In this document: positions 38,201-47,778 of the stretch, one piece after another
Layout of the letters: each line of letters starts with the position of its first letter
Numbering within the stretch: the first letter of the stretch is position 1
NCBI GenBank assembly: GCA_029263895.1
Contig: JARIDO010000007.1
Location: 1-50,952, forward strand
From: Sporosarcina sp.
GTDB taxonomy: Bacteria; Bacillota; Bacilli; Bacillales_A; Planococcaceae
Reading direction: 5' to 3'
DNA: 50,952 nucleotides
Notes under the pieces: generated by a model
What the model was told of the DNA's origin: nothing
Databases searched by the model: none
What the model saw: only the letters and a program-made list of their open reading frames with translations
Program-made: the position numbers and the translations under genes

Positions 38201-38427
38201 AGTTTATATCCTCCTTATAAATGAATACGGAATTTCCTATACCTATCAATAATAGAACATATCGTGAGCAGTTGCAATGACAACATTGTGTCAACAAAAC
38301 ATTCATTCGTTGAAATTTATTAGTTCACAATAAATACATGCTGAGAAATACTTCAGAAATGATAAGATATAGATAACTTGAATTTTGAATTATACATTTT
38401 CAAATATTTATGAAAGCAGGGCGTTTT

Positions 38428-39498
38428 ATGAAAGTACTATGGAAAATTGCACTTTTATTTATTATCGTCCTTATACTGTTTTTTATTATGGACGATCGCA
38501 TTCAAGAGAATGAGCCATTACAATCTCCCATTAAACACGGTACAGCGATACCACTACCACCTAAAGACGGTGAGATGCCTGCCAATCAAACATCTCGTCC
38601 TGAAATTGGCCTCTCTACTTTAATAGGTAAAGACGTTTCTGAGCTAAAGGAAGAATTGGGACCGCCGAACCGTGTTGAACCTTCCGGCTATAATTATGAA
38701 TGGTGGATATACAAAGGGACTGTAGAAATGATGGTAGGGGTAGAGAATGAAAAAGTGATACAACTTTTTTCAGCTGATCCAGCTGCTGACATGTTTCCTT
38801 TTAAGATTGGCGATAATGTAAAAGATATATATAGATTTACAATTGTTGAATCAGAAGTAAATGTTCAGTTAGGAGATAATAACTACACATTCTCCTTAAA
38901 TAGTGAAGATATGATGAATCGATTACTAATTCGATATGATGATTTGTATGCGCAATTATATATTGATAGTGAAGATGAACAGCTAGATGCTATTCGTTTT
39001 ATTGATTCGAAAACGTTAGTTTCTCATCAACCTTATGATATGGCATATATGGGAGAACTGGTAACTGTGAATCGTCCTTCATCATCGATGCAGATGGAAG
39101 TAGATCGGGCGATGGAAAGACAGTTGCTAGAGCTGACGAATCAATATAGAGAGAATCACAATGAAGCTAAACTTAAAAATGATTATAGGTTATCTTCAAT
39201 TGCACAAAAACACAGTCAAGATATGGCGCTTGAAAATTACTTTTCCAACGAATCACCTGCTAAAGGAAGTCTTGCGGATCGATTGCAGGAAGGGCAAGTG
39301 GAGCAGAAAAAAGCCGGTGAGAATATTGCATTTGATTATGTCGACGCGATTGAAGCAGTTCACGGTTGGTTAAATTCACCTTCCCACAGAAAGGTATTAT
39401 TAGATAAAGAATTTACACATATCGGAACAGGTGTATACGGGAAATATTTCACACAAGATTTAATTCGCAAAACTCCTACTGTAAACGCCAATGACTAA
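38428..39498 (+). CDS. ylbC: YlbC, membrane-anchored protein with CAP domain
   Basis: 356 residues from the ATG at 38428 (another ATG at 38410 lacks any ribosome site; both sites are weak). A single N-terminal membrane helix (about 2-21) anchors the protein outside the cell. A central region (about 55-210) with IGLSTLIGKDVSELKEELG and EWWIYKG blocks corresponds to the CAP-associated domain. The C-terminal CAP/SCP domain (about 230-345) has QLLELTNQYRENHNEAKL, IAQKHSQDMALENYFSN, KAGENIA and HGWLNSPSHRKVLLD. CAP proteins have varied extracellular roles, and none is proven for YlbC. It ends two bases from the convergent aspartokinase-like gene. Confidence 0.9.
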   Translation: MKVLWKIALLFIIVLILFFIMDDRIQENEPLQSPIKHGTAIPLPPKDGEMPANQTSRPEIGLSTLIGKDVSELKEELGPPNRVEPSGYNYEWWIYKGTVEMMVGVENEKVIQLFSADPAADMFPFKIGDNVKDIYRFTIVESEVNVQLGDNNYTFSLNSEDMMNRLLIRYDDLYAQLYIDSEDEQLDAIRFIDSKTLVSHQPYDMAYMGELVTVNRPSSSMQMEVDRAMERQLLELTNQYRENHNEAKLKNDYRLSSIAQKHSQDMALENYFSNESPAKGSLADRLQEGQVEQKKAGENIAFDYVDAIEAVHGWLNSPSHRKVLLDKEFTHIGTGVYGKYFTQDLIRKTPTVNAND

Positions 39499-39500
39499 TA

Positions 39501-40235
39501 TTATGATGGGTAAATCCAAGTACCTTGGACTGTTTCAGAGATTCCTCTAATATACAGAGAAATCTCTTCTTTTTTTGCATGTATTGCAGCACGTTTTTGA
39601 ATAATGGGACGTTTAGTATCCAATAGGGGAAGGAATTCATCGAAAGATAAGTAGTCTAACTTTCTACAATGTTTGTCTATCGTAGGATCAGCGGACATGA
39701 CACCTGCCACATCTTTATAGAATTCAACATGAGATGCGTGTAATGCAGAACACAGTGCGATGGCAGTTAGGTCACTGCCTCCTCTTCCTAATGTTTGTAT
39801 TTGTCCTGTATGATTCATGCCTTGAAATCCAGGTATAACAATGACATTCGTATGCTTGAATGAGTTTAAAATTTGACGAGTGTCTATTTCTTTTATAACT
39901 CCGTTTCCAAATTCTCCGGTTGTTTTGATACCTGTTTGTTCACTATGCAAAACGGTGTTTTTAATGTTTACTTCGGTAAGTTCAGCAGATAATACGGCAG
40001 CAGCAATTAGCTCACCGCATGCAGCAGCAAGATCACTTGCAAGAGTAGGTTTTGAAAAAGCTTCTGTTAGATTAAGTAATGAATCCGTAGAATACGGGTC
40101 GCCATTTCGTCCGATTGCTGAGACGACGATGACGATTTGTTCATGCTCTTTAAGTGCATTTTGTATGTGTTCAATGCACTTCATTCTCATCTCATGATTT
40201 TTCATGGCAATCCCGCCGAATTTCTGGATGATCAA
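39501..40235 (-). CDS. Short aspartokinase-like protein lacking ACT domains
   Basis: 244 residues, an amino-acid-kinase domain close to the catalytic half of DapG-type aspartokinase (IVIVVSAIGRNGDPYSTDSL; TLGRGGSDLTAIAL near 148-161; EFYKDVAGVMSADP). Aspartokinases phosphorylate L-aspartate, opening the lysine/DAP pathway. Two oddities: the protein stops after the kinase domain, without the regulatory ACT pair, so lysine/DAP feedback would be lost. The N-terminal motif normally KFGGTSV reads KFGGIAM (5-11), altering residues usually near the substrate phosphates. The start is probably TTG 40235 (GGGA upstream). The frame is open to 40388 but that would run over the divergent murE-like start. 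It could be a feedback-free or a non-catalytic paralogue. Confidence 0.78.
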   Translation of the reverse strand: MIIQKFGGIAMKNHEMRMKCIEHIQNALKEHEQIVIVVSAIGRNGDPYSTDSLLNLTEAFSKPTLASDLAAACGELIAAAVLSAELTEVNIKNTVLHSEQTGIKTTGEFGNGVIKEIDTRQILNSFKHTNVIVIPGFQGMNHTGQIQTLGRGGSDLTAIALCSALHASHVEFYKDVAGVMSADPTIDKHCRKLDYLSFDEFLPLLDTKRPIIQKRAAIHAKKEEISLYIRGISETVQGTWIYPS

Positions 40236-40276
40236 TATGTTCCCAACTTTCTTCGTGTCGTTCGTTGCGATGTCTT

Positions 40277-40292
40277 CATACGATAAAGTATG
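40277..40292. promoter_or_regulatory. Symmetrical divergent -10-like element between the kinase and murE-like genes
   Basis: CATAC-gataaa-GTATG is a perfect dyad in the 110-bp divergent intergenic region. Read on plus it gives CATAcgaTA and on minus CATActtTA; both fit the CATAnnnTA form of mother-cell sigma (SigE/SigK) -10 elements. On the minus strand aACg lies 17 bp upstream, resembling a SigK -35. No good -35 is seen on the plus strand. It could equally be an operator. Confidence 0.35.
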
Positions 40293-40345
40293 TTCGCTCT
40301 CAATATATTCGTTTGAGCAAAAGAATGTGCGGGAAGGGGAGAAGT

Positions 40346-41788
40346 GTGCTGCAATTAAAGGAACTATTAAAAGACTGGCCTTGCACAATAAGTGGGGGAG
40401 ACTTTACAACTCCTATATTTGGTATTACAGAAAATGCCTCCAATGTAAAAGATGGCTTCATCTTTGTCGCGAGAAAAGGAAAGCGAGAGGATGGAACCTT
40501 CCATGTGGAAGAAGCTGTTCGTAGAGGGGCATCGGCACTAGTTGTAGACCGTTCAGATAGCTTAGTATATCCAGTAGATATACCACTCGTAGTTGTAGCG
40601 GATTGTAAGAAGTTTATATCACACGCGAGTGCACAACTTGCGGGTCATCCTTCCAGTAGGATGACCATTATTGCAATCACAGGCACGAACGGGAAAACGA
40701 CAGTATCTCATTTCATTGGACAGTTGCTCAAAGCATTCCATATACGAGCTGCGGTCATTGGTACGACAGGTGTCTACATCGATGGGATCGAAGTTAAATA
40801 CGAAATGCCATCGATGACGACTCCATTAGCTGAGTACTTACATCCTTTATTACGTAGATGTGAGGAAGATGGTGTTTCCCATATCGTTCTTGAGGCCTCA
40901 TCAATCGGACTTGAAATGAATAGGCTGGATCATTGTGAAATTGATTTAGGTGTTCTTTTAAATATCGGGACTGATCATTATGAAGAGCATGGAAGTAAAC
41001 AACAATACATTAATGCTAAAAAAAAATTGATAACTCTTTCAAATAAAATGGTTGTCAACAAAGATGACAGTGAATGCTTTCATATGGTTGCTAATAGCCA
41101 TACTCCTGTCTGTTATTTTGGTTCGAACTGTTGCAAAGAATTATGTTCCTTAGATGAGGATATCACTCTAGCCTTACCGGGTAATCATAATAAGATGAAT
41201 GCCTTAGCTGCAATTTCAGTAATGAAAGAATTAGGTTTTCCTATTGATAAGATGCGTCAACATATCCATTTATTAAAACTACCAGAAGGCAGACTTCAAC
41301 GATTAGACAAAGAAGGGGTAGTTGTCTTCGTTGACTATGCGCATACACCTGATGCACTTCGCGCGGTATTGGAAACACTTACTGCGCGTTGCTATGGAAA
41401 TTTAATTACCGTTTTTGGATGTGGGGGAGATCGTGACAAAGGGAAGCGAAAGGAGATGGGTGAGTTAGCTGTGCAATTTTCCTCAAGCGTGATATTGACT
41501 ACTGATAACCCGCGAACAGAATTACCGAGTCAGATTATTAATGATATTATGGAAGGGTTTGGAGGGGATTGTTCAACAGTAGAATCCATTATGGACAGGA
41601 AAACAGCTATTCGAAAGGCAGTCTTTTCTGCTGCACCAGGAGACATTGTTCTCGTTGCAGGAAAAGGACATGAAAAAACACAACATACGGCAGATGGGAT
41701 ATTCCCTTTTTCCGACTTACATGAAGTTAGGCAAGCTTTAGAGGAAAAGTTGGTTAAGGCTATTATTGAAAACGAGCAGCTTAATTGA
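40346..41788 (+). CDS. MurE-like UDP-N-acetylmuramoyl-tripeptide synthetase paralogue
   Basis: 480 residues, three-domain Mur ligase. The ATP loop GTNGKTT is at 113-119, the central block has TTPLAEYLHP, EASSIGLEM and GTDHYEEHG, the carbamylated-lysine region is YINAKKKL, and the C-terminal domain begins near 320 with KLPEGRLQRLDKEGVVVFVDYAHTPDA kept in family form. The residue-3-specificity motif is DNPR at 387-390, the form associated with meso-diaminopimelate addition. The usual EVSSHAL and RDH residues are altered, so this is a diverged paralogue. The start is GTG 40346 with AAGGGGAG just upstream. The ordinary murE is expected in the dcw cluster, not here. Divergent from the kinase gene. 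Confidence 0.8.
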   Translation: MLQLKELLKDWPCTISGGDFTTPIFGITENASNVKDGFIFVARKGKREDGTFHVEEAVRRGASALVVDRSDSLVYPVDIPLVVVADCKKFISHASAQLAGHPSSRMTIIAITGTNGKTTVSHFIGQLLKAFHIRAAVIGTTGVYIDGIEVKYEMPSMTTPLAEYLHPLLRRCEEDGVSHIVLEASSIGLEMNRLDHCEIDLGVLLNIGTDHYEEHGSKQQYINAKKKLITLSNKMVVNKDDSECFHMVANSHTPVCYFGSNCCKELCSLDEDITLALPGNHNKMNALAAISVMKELGFPIDKMRQHIHLLKLPEGRLQRLDKEGVVVFVDYAHTPDALRAVLETLTARCYGNLITVFGCGGDRDKGKRKEMGELAVQFSSSVILTTDNPRTELPSQIINDIMEGFGGDCSTVESIMDRKTAIRKAVFSAAPGDIVLVAGKGHEKTQHTADGIFPFSDLHEVRQALEEKLVKAIIENEQLN

Positions 41789-41886
41789 CTTTAAACGAAG
41801 TTGAATTGATCCGTCTCAAACAACCTTATACTTATTCTTGACAGCAATAAATCATCTTGAATAGGTGCAAGAAGAATGTGATGTCT

Positions 41887-41894
41887 GCTATAAT
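41887..41894 (+). promoter_or_regulatory. Extended -10 promoter of ylbF
   Basis: TGcTATAAT (TG at 41886-41887, TATAAT at 41889-41894), 24 bp before the ylbF ATG, without a clear -35. Confidence 0.6.
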
Positions 41895-41918
41895 AGGGTG
41901 GATAGGAGTGATCAATCC

Positions 41919-42362
41919 ATGATAATGACTGACGAATGGAACGCTATCATTGATAATGCGGAATCTCTTACTGCGATGCTATTATCTTCAGATGCAGTTG
42001 CTAATTACCGTAAAGCATTTGATGCCGTCTATTCAGATGAGAAATTGGCAAGTTCTATCCATGCGTTTACAGCCATGAAGGAACGCCATGAAGAAGTTCA
42101 ACGTTTCGGGAAATACCATCCCGATTACAATATAGTGATGAAAAGTATCCGTGTACAAAAGCGTGAATTAGATCTCAATGAGAAAGTGGCAACGTTACGG
42201 ATTGCTGAAAATGATGTCCAGTATATTCTGGATGAAATCGGGTCTATTGTTGCTCAATCAGTATCAGAGTCGGTTAAAGTACCAACGGATAGTTTGTTTT
42301 CGACAGGGTCATCTTGTGGAAGTGGTTGTGGTACGGGTGGAAGTTGTTCATGTTCTGCTTAA
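41919..42362 (+). CDS. ylbF: YlbF/RicF, RNA-maturation and development regulator subunit
   Basis: 147 residues, mainly helical (DUF964/YlbF family). In B. subtilis YlbF forms the Y-complex with YmcA and YaaT, which binds iron-sulfur clusters and promotes RNase Y-dependent maturation, affecting sporulation, competence and biofilm. A cysteine-rich tail with four cysteines among Gly/Ser (last ~16 residues) agrees with the cluster-binding C-terminus of YlbF. The start is the ATG at 41919 (AGGAG ten bases upstream); the frame extends upstream over the promoter without a start signal. Confidence 0.92.
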   Translation: MIMTDEWNAIIDNAESLTAMLLSSDAVANYRKAFDAVYSDEKLASSIHAFTAMKERHEEVQRFGKYHPDYNIVMKSIRVQKRELDLNEKVATLRIAENDVQYILDEIGSIVAQSVSESVKVPTDSLFSTGSSCGSGCGTGGSCSCSA

Positions 42363-46857: not shown

Positions 46858-47778
46858 TCAGTAAATGAGATAGAAGATGAAAGGAACAAAGAATATACTC
46901 CATAATCTCGCAAGAACATATGGTGACATCGGAATTCGAAATGACTTTGCAATAACGAACACTTGCATATGGATGCTTAACCCGTTAAAGGAGACAATCA
47001 TTGCTATTAAGAATGGGTATATTACCATACTTGAGAAATGGTCAGTTGCTGATTGCACACCTGAAGTCATTTCAAAAATAGTAAGTGCAATTGTTTTTGA
47101 AATACCCATTTCGACTGAAAATGTTGACGTGATCACATTGGCTAACACGGTACCTAATGCCGAAAAGAAAATGACCGTTGTCGCGACCAAAATTATAACC
47201 GTTGAACTTTCCTTTAAAGCATCTAGGAATGGTGTAGTGGAAATGATGGGGCGTTTAAGAGAAGAGCTTAAAGAAAGTTCTTTATGATTTGAAATGAAAA
47301 GAAATGATAAAATGAAGAATAATAGATTTGACAGATGGATAGCGATAAGTAATTTCCAACCACTAGACACATCAGCAAATAATTCAATGCCTATAAAGCC
47401 AATAATGAACATAGGACCGGGCGCATGACAAATTGCCAAAAGTAGACTGCTGTATTTACTGGAGATTTCACTATTTTTAAGCATCTCTGTAACGGTTACA
47501 GCTCCTACAGGGAATCCTCCGAATGAGCCAAGTATGTATGCTTTAAAAAAGAGTTTCCATTGAGATTTACCATTCGTATGCCCGGGGATTTTTAAAAGCC
47601 ATTGTGTCAAAATTATATACGGTAATAGATAAGGGAGTAATGCATGTAGAAAAAGTTGTGCACCCGCTTCTGCACCTGCATGTGCAACTCCAGGTTTGAG
47701 AATAAATAAAAATATCAATGCCCAGATAATTAGAATGGTCATTGTATGATAATGGCGTGAAGGCATATTTACGTCCAC
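46858..47778 (-). CDS. ylbJ: YlbJ-like sporulation integral membrane protein
   Basis: 306 residues with about eight membrane helices. YlbJ is a SigE-controlled protein needed for normal spore cortex and heat resistance in B. subtilis. Position between coaD and ylbL and blocks such as LLPYLLPYIILTQWLL, GSFGGFPVGAVTVTEML and AICHAPGPMFIIGFIG support it. The protein is about 100 residues shorter than B. subtilis YlbJ (408). The start is GTG 47778 with AAAGGAG eight bases upstream. Its presence is the best single hint that the organism sporulates. Confidence 0.82.
   Translation of the reverse strand: MDVNMPSRHYHTMTILIIWALIFLFILKPGVAHAGAEAGAQLFLHALLPYLLPYIILTQWLLKIPGHTNGKSQWKLFFKAYILGSFGGFPVGAVTVTEMLKNSEISSKYSSLLLAICHAPGPMFIIGFIGIELFADVSSGWKLLIAIHLSNLLFFILSFLFISNHKELSLSSSLKRPIISTTPFLDALKESSTVIILVATTVIFFSALGTVLANVITSTFSVEMGISKTIALTIFEMTSGVQSATDHFSSMVIYPFLIAMIVSFNGLSIHMQVFVIAKSFRIPMSPYVLARLWSIFFVPFIFYLIY

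Follow-up and report, generated by a model that had tools for sequence, protein, structure and literature searches.

Some spore formers have lysine in the growing wall and meso-diaminopimelate (DAP) in the spore cortex, which is an old biochemical observation. Tipper, Pratt and Linnett reportedly described in the 1970s a sporulation-induced enzyme of Bacillus (Lysinibacillus) sphaericus that adds meso-DAP, and this organism is said to combine a lysine-type vegetative wall and a DAP-type cortex with a separate DAP ligase made in sporulation. Here we describe a locus that may hold the gene of such an enzyme. It lies in a window of 50,952 nucleotides from Sporosarcina sp. (family Planococcaceae; assembly GCA_029263895.1, contig JARIDO010000007.1, the whole stretch analysed) and consists of murE2, a second gene for a MurE-type Mur ligase, and a divergent gene for a short aspartokinase that resembles DapG without its ACT half. 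murE2 fits as the gene of the B. sphaericus ligase; that enzyme is an activity in extracts, and its link to murE2 we infer.

MurE2 resembles the DAP-type MurE of Escherichia coli (1e8c) and Mycobacterium tuberculosis (2wtz) in its DNPR motif, its GKGHE block and its homology over most of the length. Unlike these two enzymes, which are the main MurE of their cells, MurE2 is a second copy, sits in the ylb region and is tied to the sporulation gene spoIVA. The L-lysine MurE of Staphylococcus aureus (4c12) also belongs to this enzyme family. Among solved structures it comes closest to MurE1, the other MurE of the genome, and it is distant from MurE2. The catalytic half of DapG from other Bacilli groups with the short kinase, which unlike DapG has no ACT half and is encoded divergently from murE2.

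MurE2 is most likely a sporulation-specific ligase that adds meso-DAP to cortex precursors, MurE1 is likely the L-lysine ligase of the vegetative wall, and the DapG-type kinase would supply DAP. We regard this reading as probable. The substrate choice, the time and place of expression and the freedom of the kinase from feedback are what we infer from sequence comparison. The activity is old knowledge. A gene for the sporulation DAP-adding activity was not found in the open-access literature searched, from which most subscription papers are missing. Nor did the truncated DapG partner, the spoIVA match or the absence of full-length DapG across the family appear there, where no search was made on the DapG points alone. 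With a single gene to work on, carried by all 114 spoIVA-bearing genomes sampled in the family, it would become possible to test directly why a DAP-type cortex is required.

The two MurE ligases of the genome

MurE2 scores above the cut-offs of two MurE models, TIGR01085 (403 bits against 257) and NF001126 (410 bits against 373), and keeps the P-loop TGTNGKTT and the GKGHE block, and thus it belongs to MurE. With MurE2 as the query, the source genome (2.3 Mb, 79% complete) gave two matches at E <= 1e-50, MurE2 itself and MurE1 on contig C24. A sequence-only reading of the window had placed a Mur ligase with DNPR at residues 387-390 back-to-back with a kinase. Both genes are where it put them, and the residues are D387, N388, P389 and R390. 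It had also proposed a comparison with the main murE, and there the motif is DDPR and not DNPR: MurE1 of the source genome reads TTDDPRDEP, and TTDDPR was found in all 26 MurE1 loci read (17 genera). In DAP enzymes, the asparagine at the second and the arginine at the fourth position of DNPR bind the free carboxyl group of meso-DAP, according to PMC3829189. These two residues of DN-x-R are present in the MurE2 of 56 out of 56 family genomes read, which makes the motif DAP-type in all of them, and the full DNPR is present in 49. Sporosarcina highlanderae, the one named relative within the family, shares with the window the DNPR motif, the divergent short kinase and the neighbouring genes. Among the 80 best named MurE relatives, this species included, 77 read DNPR and three read DNSR.

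We take chain 4c12 of the Protein Data Bank to be the S. aureus L-Lys ligase, 1e8c and 2wtz to be the DAP ligases of E. coli and M. tuberculosis, and 8f5d to be a MurE-MurF fusion. MurE1 scored highest with 4c12 (428 bits, over nearly the whole length), followed by 8f5d (324 bits), 1e8c (287 bits) and 2wtz (252 bits). MurE2 scored 269 bits with 8f5d, 248 with 2wtz and 195 with 1e8c, and its lowest score among the MurE chains was 146 bits with 4c12. By sequence, MurE2 is closer to the DAP ligases and MurE1 is nearest to the L-lysine ligase. The motif of S. aureus MurE is DNPA (PMC3829189), and that of MurE1 is DDPR.

A recent origin of MurE2 by duplication of MurE1 was rejected on the tree, in which MurE2 forms a group of its own (95/77) and MurE1 another (100/100). 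The value of 95/77 excludes the MurE2 of genome G020, whose very long branch is drawn at the root and has an unsure placement. The MurE1 group joins the MurE of Fictibacillus, Halalkalibacter and Lentibacillus, at 87/72 only.

MurE2 and the sporulation gene spoIVA

We surveyed 151 family genomes, with spoIVA as the marker of sporulation. spoIVA is present in 117 of them; it is broken in G001, G038 and G054 and unbroken in the remaining 114, which include G099, where the gene is cut by a contig end and was counted as present. By this marker alone, MurE2 is present in all 114 genomes with unbroken spoIVA and was found in none of the 37 in which spoIVA is absent (34) or broken (three). The sequence-only reading would have the pair missing from non-sporulating relatives, and in the presumed ones, the 37 family genomes without an unbroken spoIVA, the second MurE is indeed not seen. 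The 114 consist of 107 genomes, six genomes of genus g4 and genome G020 of genus g2, the last seven by further searches; g4 and g2 had been considered as exceptions, and these searches removed them. The 107 were counted by homology and not motif by motif (39-100% identity to the MurE2 of the window; MurE1 matches have 31-36%), and those of G018, G052, G099 and G106 are represented by no more than the first 260 residues.

All 34 spoIVA-lacking genomes have MurE1. Their extra MurE-like matches, also 34 in number, all read DDLN or DHPG and none reads DN-x-R, and on this ground the extra matches of the spoIVA-negative genera g7 and g12 were rejected as MurE2. In the three genomes with broken spoIVA, the MurE-like matches read are DDLN, DDRN or a type without the motif; this leaves aside two weak matches, one in G038 (179 bits) and one in G054 (181 bits). 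All three are from genus g2, in which G020 with intact spoIVA has MurE2 and the kinase; MurE2 was not found in G001, G038 or G054. These sister genomes have apparently been caught losing sporulation, and both MurE2 and the kinase of G020 are very diverged (L224). The MurE1 rows of the tree were used as a stand-in for a species tree. There, the spoIVA-negative genera take five places (g7 with g12, g8, g9, g6 and g16). g7 with g12 branches first. Each of the other four is surrounded by spoIVA-bearing genera, and these four appear to be separate losses.

It is very improbable that MurE2 is an ordinary spare MurE without a link to sporulation, with shared ancestry behind the correlation. The MurE2 sequences form one group within one family (95/77 without the long-branched G020), as such an origin would have it. 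Against this, the absence of MurE2 tracks that of spoIVA in at least four nested lineages and within genus g2, and other MurE paralogues (DDLN, DHPG) persist in spoIVA-negative genomes. Within the family, MurE2 may serve as a genomic marker by which true spore formers can be recognised. With a MurE2 profile, 24 family genomes scored 618-738 bits, and scores elsewhere were at most 449 bits (398 class genomes, with at most three candidates each). No MurE2 orthologue was seen outside the family in these 398 genomes, by a search that would miss a copy as diverged as that of G020.

The short kinase, the intergenic region and the proposed switch

From the sequence alone, the kinase had been said to resemble the catalytic half of DapG and to lack ACT domains, and domain search and tree both agree. 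It has Pfam AA_kinase only, and in the same test a full-length aspartokinase of its own genome has AA_kinase with ACT_7/ACT_9. Its best family match is NF006068, which we take to be the model of DapG-type aspartokinases, over residues 1-241 only; with 245.7 bits (cut-off 474) and no ACT domain, it falls outside full-length DapG. In the tree, the short kinases fall together with DapG of other Bacilli (100/100) and separately from the full-length enzymes of the family. Judged by these comparisons, the short kinase is a truncated DapG whose ACT half is gone (244 of about 405 amino acids). Full-length DapG over the cut-off was found in 0 of the 151 family genomes, compared with 84 of 121 genomes of a class sample.

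The short kinase is present in 58 of the 114 spoIVA-bearing genomes, 57 by search (E <= 1.9e-50) and G020, and in each it is divergent from MurE2. Since the pair recurs in 57 of 57 family genomes with a search-found short kinase, the window's own included, and since G020 has one further, more diverged copy, the arrangement is not due to chance. The gap between the two genes is about 110-130 bp, and about 190-200 bp in G021 and G066. The kinase-lacking genera (g10, g13, g14, g15, g18 and g19) form one MurE2 clade (100/99), and thus the kinase is probably ancestral and was lost once. At the start of the kinase, position 40235, the codon is TTG in the window and ATG in relatives; the start at 40388 in a program-made list of open reading frames is too far upstream.

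The short kinase could be a non-catalytic or regulatory remnant of DapG rather than a working aspartokinase, which we consider unlikely. About half of the spoIVA-bearing genomes do without it, and 23 of the 24 aligned short kinases read K(F/Y)GG(I/V/A)A and one reads KYGGWA, compared with KFGGSS in the full-length enzyme of the source genome; these features suit a remnant. However, all 24 retain the GE and VSA blocks and 23 of them GRGGSD (ERGGSD in G020), and the reading frames are preserved across genera. In an alignment to aspartokinase 3aaw, the S, T, E and R that bind aspartate are also kept, as in catalytic aspartokinases; the roles of these residues we take from the Corynebacterium glutamicum aspartokinase.

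Another explanation is that MurE2 is the cortex DAP ligase and the ACT-less DapG mainly feeds dipicolinic acid rather than cortex DAP, both products leaving one mother-cell pathway. Dipicolinic acid is 5-15% of the spore dry weight and is made in the mother cell (PMC5629000), and genomes can have MurE2 without the kinase, which is in 58 of 114. Its divergence from MurE2 in 58 of 58 genomes argues against this explanation, which we find doubtful. Besides cortex DAP, the kinase could also serve dipicolinate.

The intergenic region is predicted to hold overlapping promoters (Table 1). CATANNNTA, which PMC517825 gives as the -10 element common to sigma E and sigma K, occurs within 150 bp upstream of MurE2 in 27 of 33 family regions (1.86 expected from shuffles). 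It was found upstream of MurE1 in 0 of 15 regions (1.43 expected), these being the regions long enough out of 26 loci. In the same source, the -35 element of sigma E has 8 nt and the optimal gap is 12 bp. A G(A/T)C... element stands exactly 12 bp before the -10 in all 19 kinase-bearing rows with a parsed aligned -10, S. highlanderae included; this is a raw count, with g17b parsed at another site and no match in range in g1c. Relatives have GACATTTC, GTCATTTT, GACATATT and similar sequences at the -35 position. The matching site of g3b lies outside the aligned block, where g3 and g11 mostly have CATACGATG. In the kinase-lacking genera, the -10 is nearer to the gene, with a less regular spacing. 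GAATRYATT on the kinase strand was found in 15 of the 21 regions with a kinase (0.16 expected) and in 0 of the 13 without, and it recurs in several genera. CATACTTTA on this strand had been considered as the -10 of the kinase and was rejected; unlike GAATRYATT, it is absent from the inspected sequences of other genera.

We propose that during growth MurE1 with its DDPR motif would build a lysine-type wall. In sporulation, sigma factor E (or K) of the mother cell would switch on murE2, and the DNPR pocket of MurE2 would bind the extra carboxyl group of meso-DAP, so that the stem peptide of the cortex would carry DAP. About half of the genomes have the divergent ACT-less DapG as well, which would simultaneously initiate the aspartate pathway. 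DapG of Bacillus subtilis is feedback-inhibited by DAP. Because its regulatory half is lost, the short kinase would escape inhibition by DAP or lysine, and the unregulated enzyme would supply DAP for the cortex and possibly for dipicolinate too. The sequence-only reading had suggested the pair as a possible sporulation switch. The ligase keeps this role, and the kinase is not an obligatory part of it: since MurE2 is in every spoIVA-bearing genome and the kinase in 58 of 114 only, the ligase would be the switch and the kinase an accessory.

More tentatively, and as a scenario that we place somewhat below even chances, the two MurE isozymes may form a developmental wall switch throughout the family. 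MurE2, by guarding the DAP of the cortex, would have freed the main MurE to drift from DNPR to DDPR (or to give way to a DDLN type), and lysine or ornithine would have entered the growing wall instead. DapG would have been trimmed to an unregulated sporulation kinase within a back-to-back module for DAP supply, with no full-length DapG left.

Several observations weigh against MurE2 as a cortex DAP ligase expressed in the mother cell. NF001126, the DAP-ligase model of NCBIfam, is passed by MurE1 (528 bits) as well as by MurE2. Seven of the 56 MurE2s, all from genera g13, g18 and g19, read DN(A/S/C)R rather than DNPR, and the occurrence of DNSR in one record of Bifidobacterium breve, from a genus with Lys/Orn walls, calls for caution with these seven. 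spoIVA was the sole sporulation marker, and the kinase is missing from 56 of the 114 spoIVA-bearing genomes. In the promoter, the -35 match GTCGTTCG is weak in the window, and CATANNNTA is missing from six of the 33 upstream regions of MurE2, which are related and therefore not independent. The window alone is unconvincing, with CATANNNTA upstream of 5 of its 45 genes, and the ylbJ-like gene in it has no CATANNNTA within 150 bp of the called start; in B. subtilis, ylbJ is controlled by sigma E (PMC3533761). As to the motif, PMC3829189 reports that S. aureus MurE given the DNPR sequence gained no DAP activity, that the motif is not the sole determinant and that the choice of lysine in S. aureus owes much to pool size. 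In the same study P408A was the most active S. aureus mutant, and thus the proline of the motif looks dispensable.

MurE2 might be linked to sporulation but add lysine or ornithine, for example to secure mother-cell supply or for a germ-cell wall. Besides the statement of PMC3829189 that specificity is not set by the motif alone, the DN(A/S/C)R copies of three genera would suit this explanation. We consider it quite unlikely, as MurE2 is nearer to the DAP ligases and least like the Lys ligase, and as its N and R (56 of 56) stand against DDPR in MurE1 (26 of 26). Overall, the interpretation of the locus as a sporulation-specific source of cortex DAP, first made from the sequence alone, is supported.

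NCBIfam was dropped as a judge of specificity. NF001126 cannot discriminate, because both MurE2 and MurE1 exceed its cut-off, and so a model for DAP ligases accepts a DDPR enzyme whose nearest solved relative is a lysine ligase. The L-Lys ligase model NF010628 (cut-off 536) was not reached by MurE2 (253.7 bits) or by MurE1 (392.8 bits). Since MurE1 also fails it, this model may be narrow, and the result is no argument against MurE1 adding lysine. Since NF001126 gives it 528 bits, MurE1, a DDPR enzyme nearest to 4c12, is likely misnamed by automatic annotation.

Neighbouring genes and further MurE types

Table 1. Features of the murE2 locus in the window, and the position of MurE1 elsewhere in the genome
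Feature	Position	Strand	Remarks
ylbC-like CAP-domain gene, conserved left neighbour	38410..39498	+	
ACT-less DapG-type aspartokinase	39501..40235	-	244 amino acids; TTG start at 40235
Divergent intergenic region with predicted overlapping promoters	40236..40345	.	110 bp
GTCGTTCG, predicted -35	40257..40264	+	gap of exactly 12 bp to the -10; match weak in the window
CATACGATA, predicted -10 of the murE2 promoter, of the mother-cell sigma-E/sigma-K type	40277..40285	+	
GAATATATT, conserved block on the kinase strand (GAATRYATT), predicted part of the kinase promoter	40302..40310	-	
murE2, second MurE-type Mur ligase	40346..41788	+	480 amino acids; GTG start at 40346, stop at 41788
DNPR codons	41504..41515	+	MurE2 residues 387-390, in T-T-D-N-P-R
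ylbF-like gene, usual right neighbour	41865..42362	+	ATG slightly inside the open reading frame
MurE1, the other MurE of the genome	L001:952-2436	-	contig C24

MurE2, or the pair, adjoins a ylbC-like gene in all 11 loci inspected. On the other side, a ylbF-like gene is the first or second gene in 10 of the 11; the exception is L073 (g5), with other genes in the 2 kb downstream of MurE2. S. highlanderae has both the ylbC-like and the ylbF-like neighbours. The names ylbC and ylbF for the flanking genes of the window are presumptive. A cortex gene that we take to be ylbJ-like is found at 46858-47778 (minus strand) of the window, 5 kb from MurE2.

Genera g4 (16 of 16 genomes) and g2 (4 of 4) have no MurE1-type match at E <= 1e-90. 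The MurE copies read in them are DDLN, or DDRN in G038 and G054, and these copies are probably the vegetative ligases. Both genera have MurE2 wherever spoIVA is intact. The DDLN loci of g2 and g4 are L200, L204, L210, L212 and L214, and DDLN also occurs as extra copies in the spoIVA-negative genera g7 and g12 (L243, L244, L246, L248, L251, L256-L260, L268-L270 and L281). The substrate of the DDLN type is perhaps L-ornithine or L-lysine. The MurE-like paralogue with DHPG was found in g7 and g12 (L242, L245, L247, L249, L250, L252-L255, L261 and L271-L280). Ten inspected copies have no GKGHE block, and at the three loci with inspected neighbours (L242, L245 and L247) it lies beside a fumarase-like gene.

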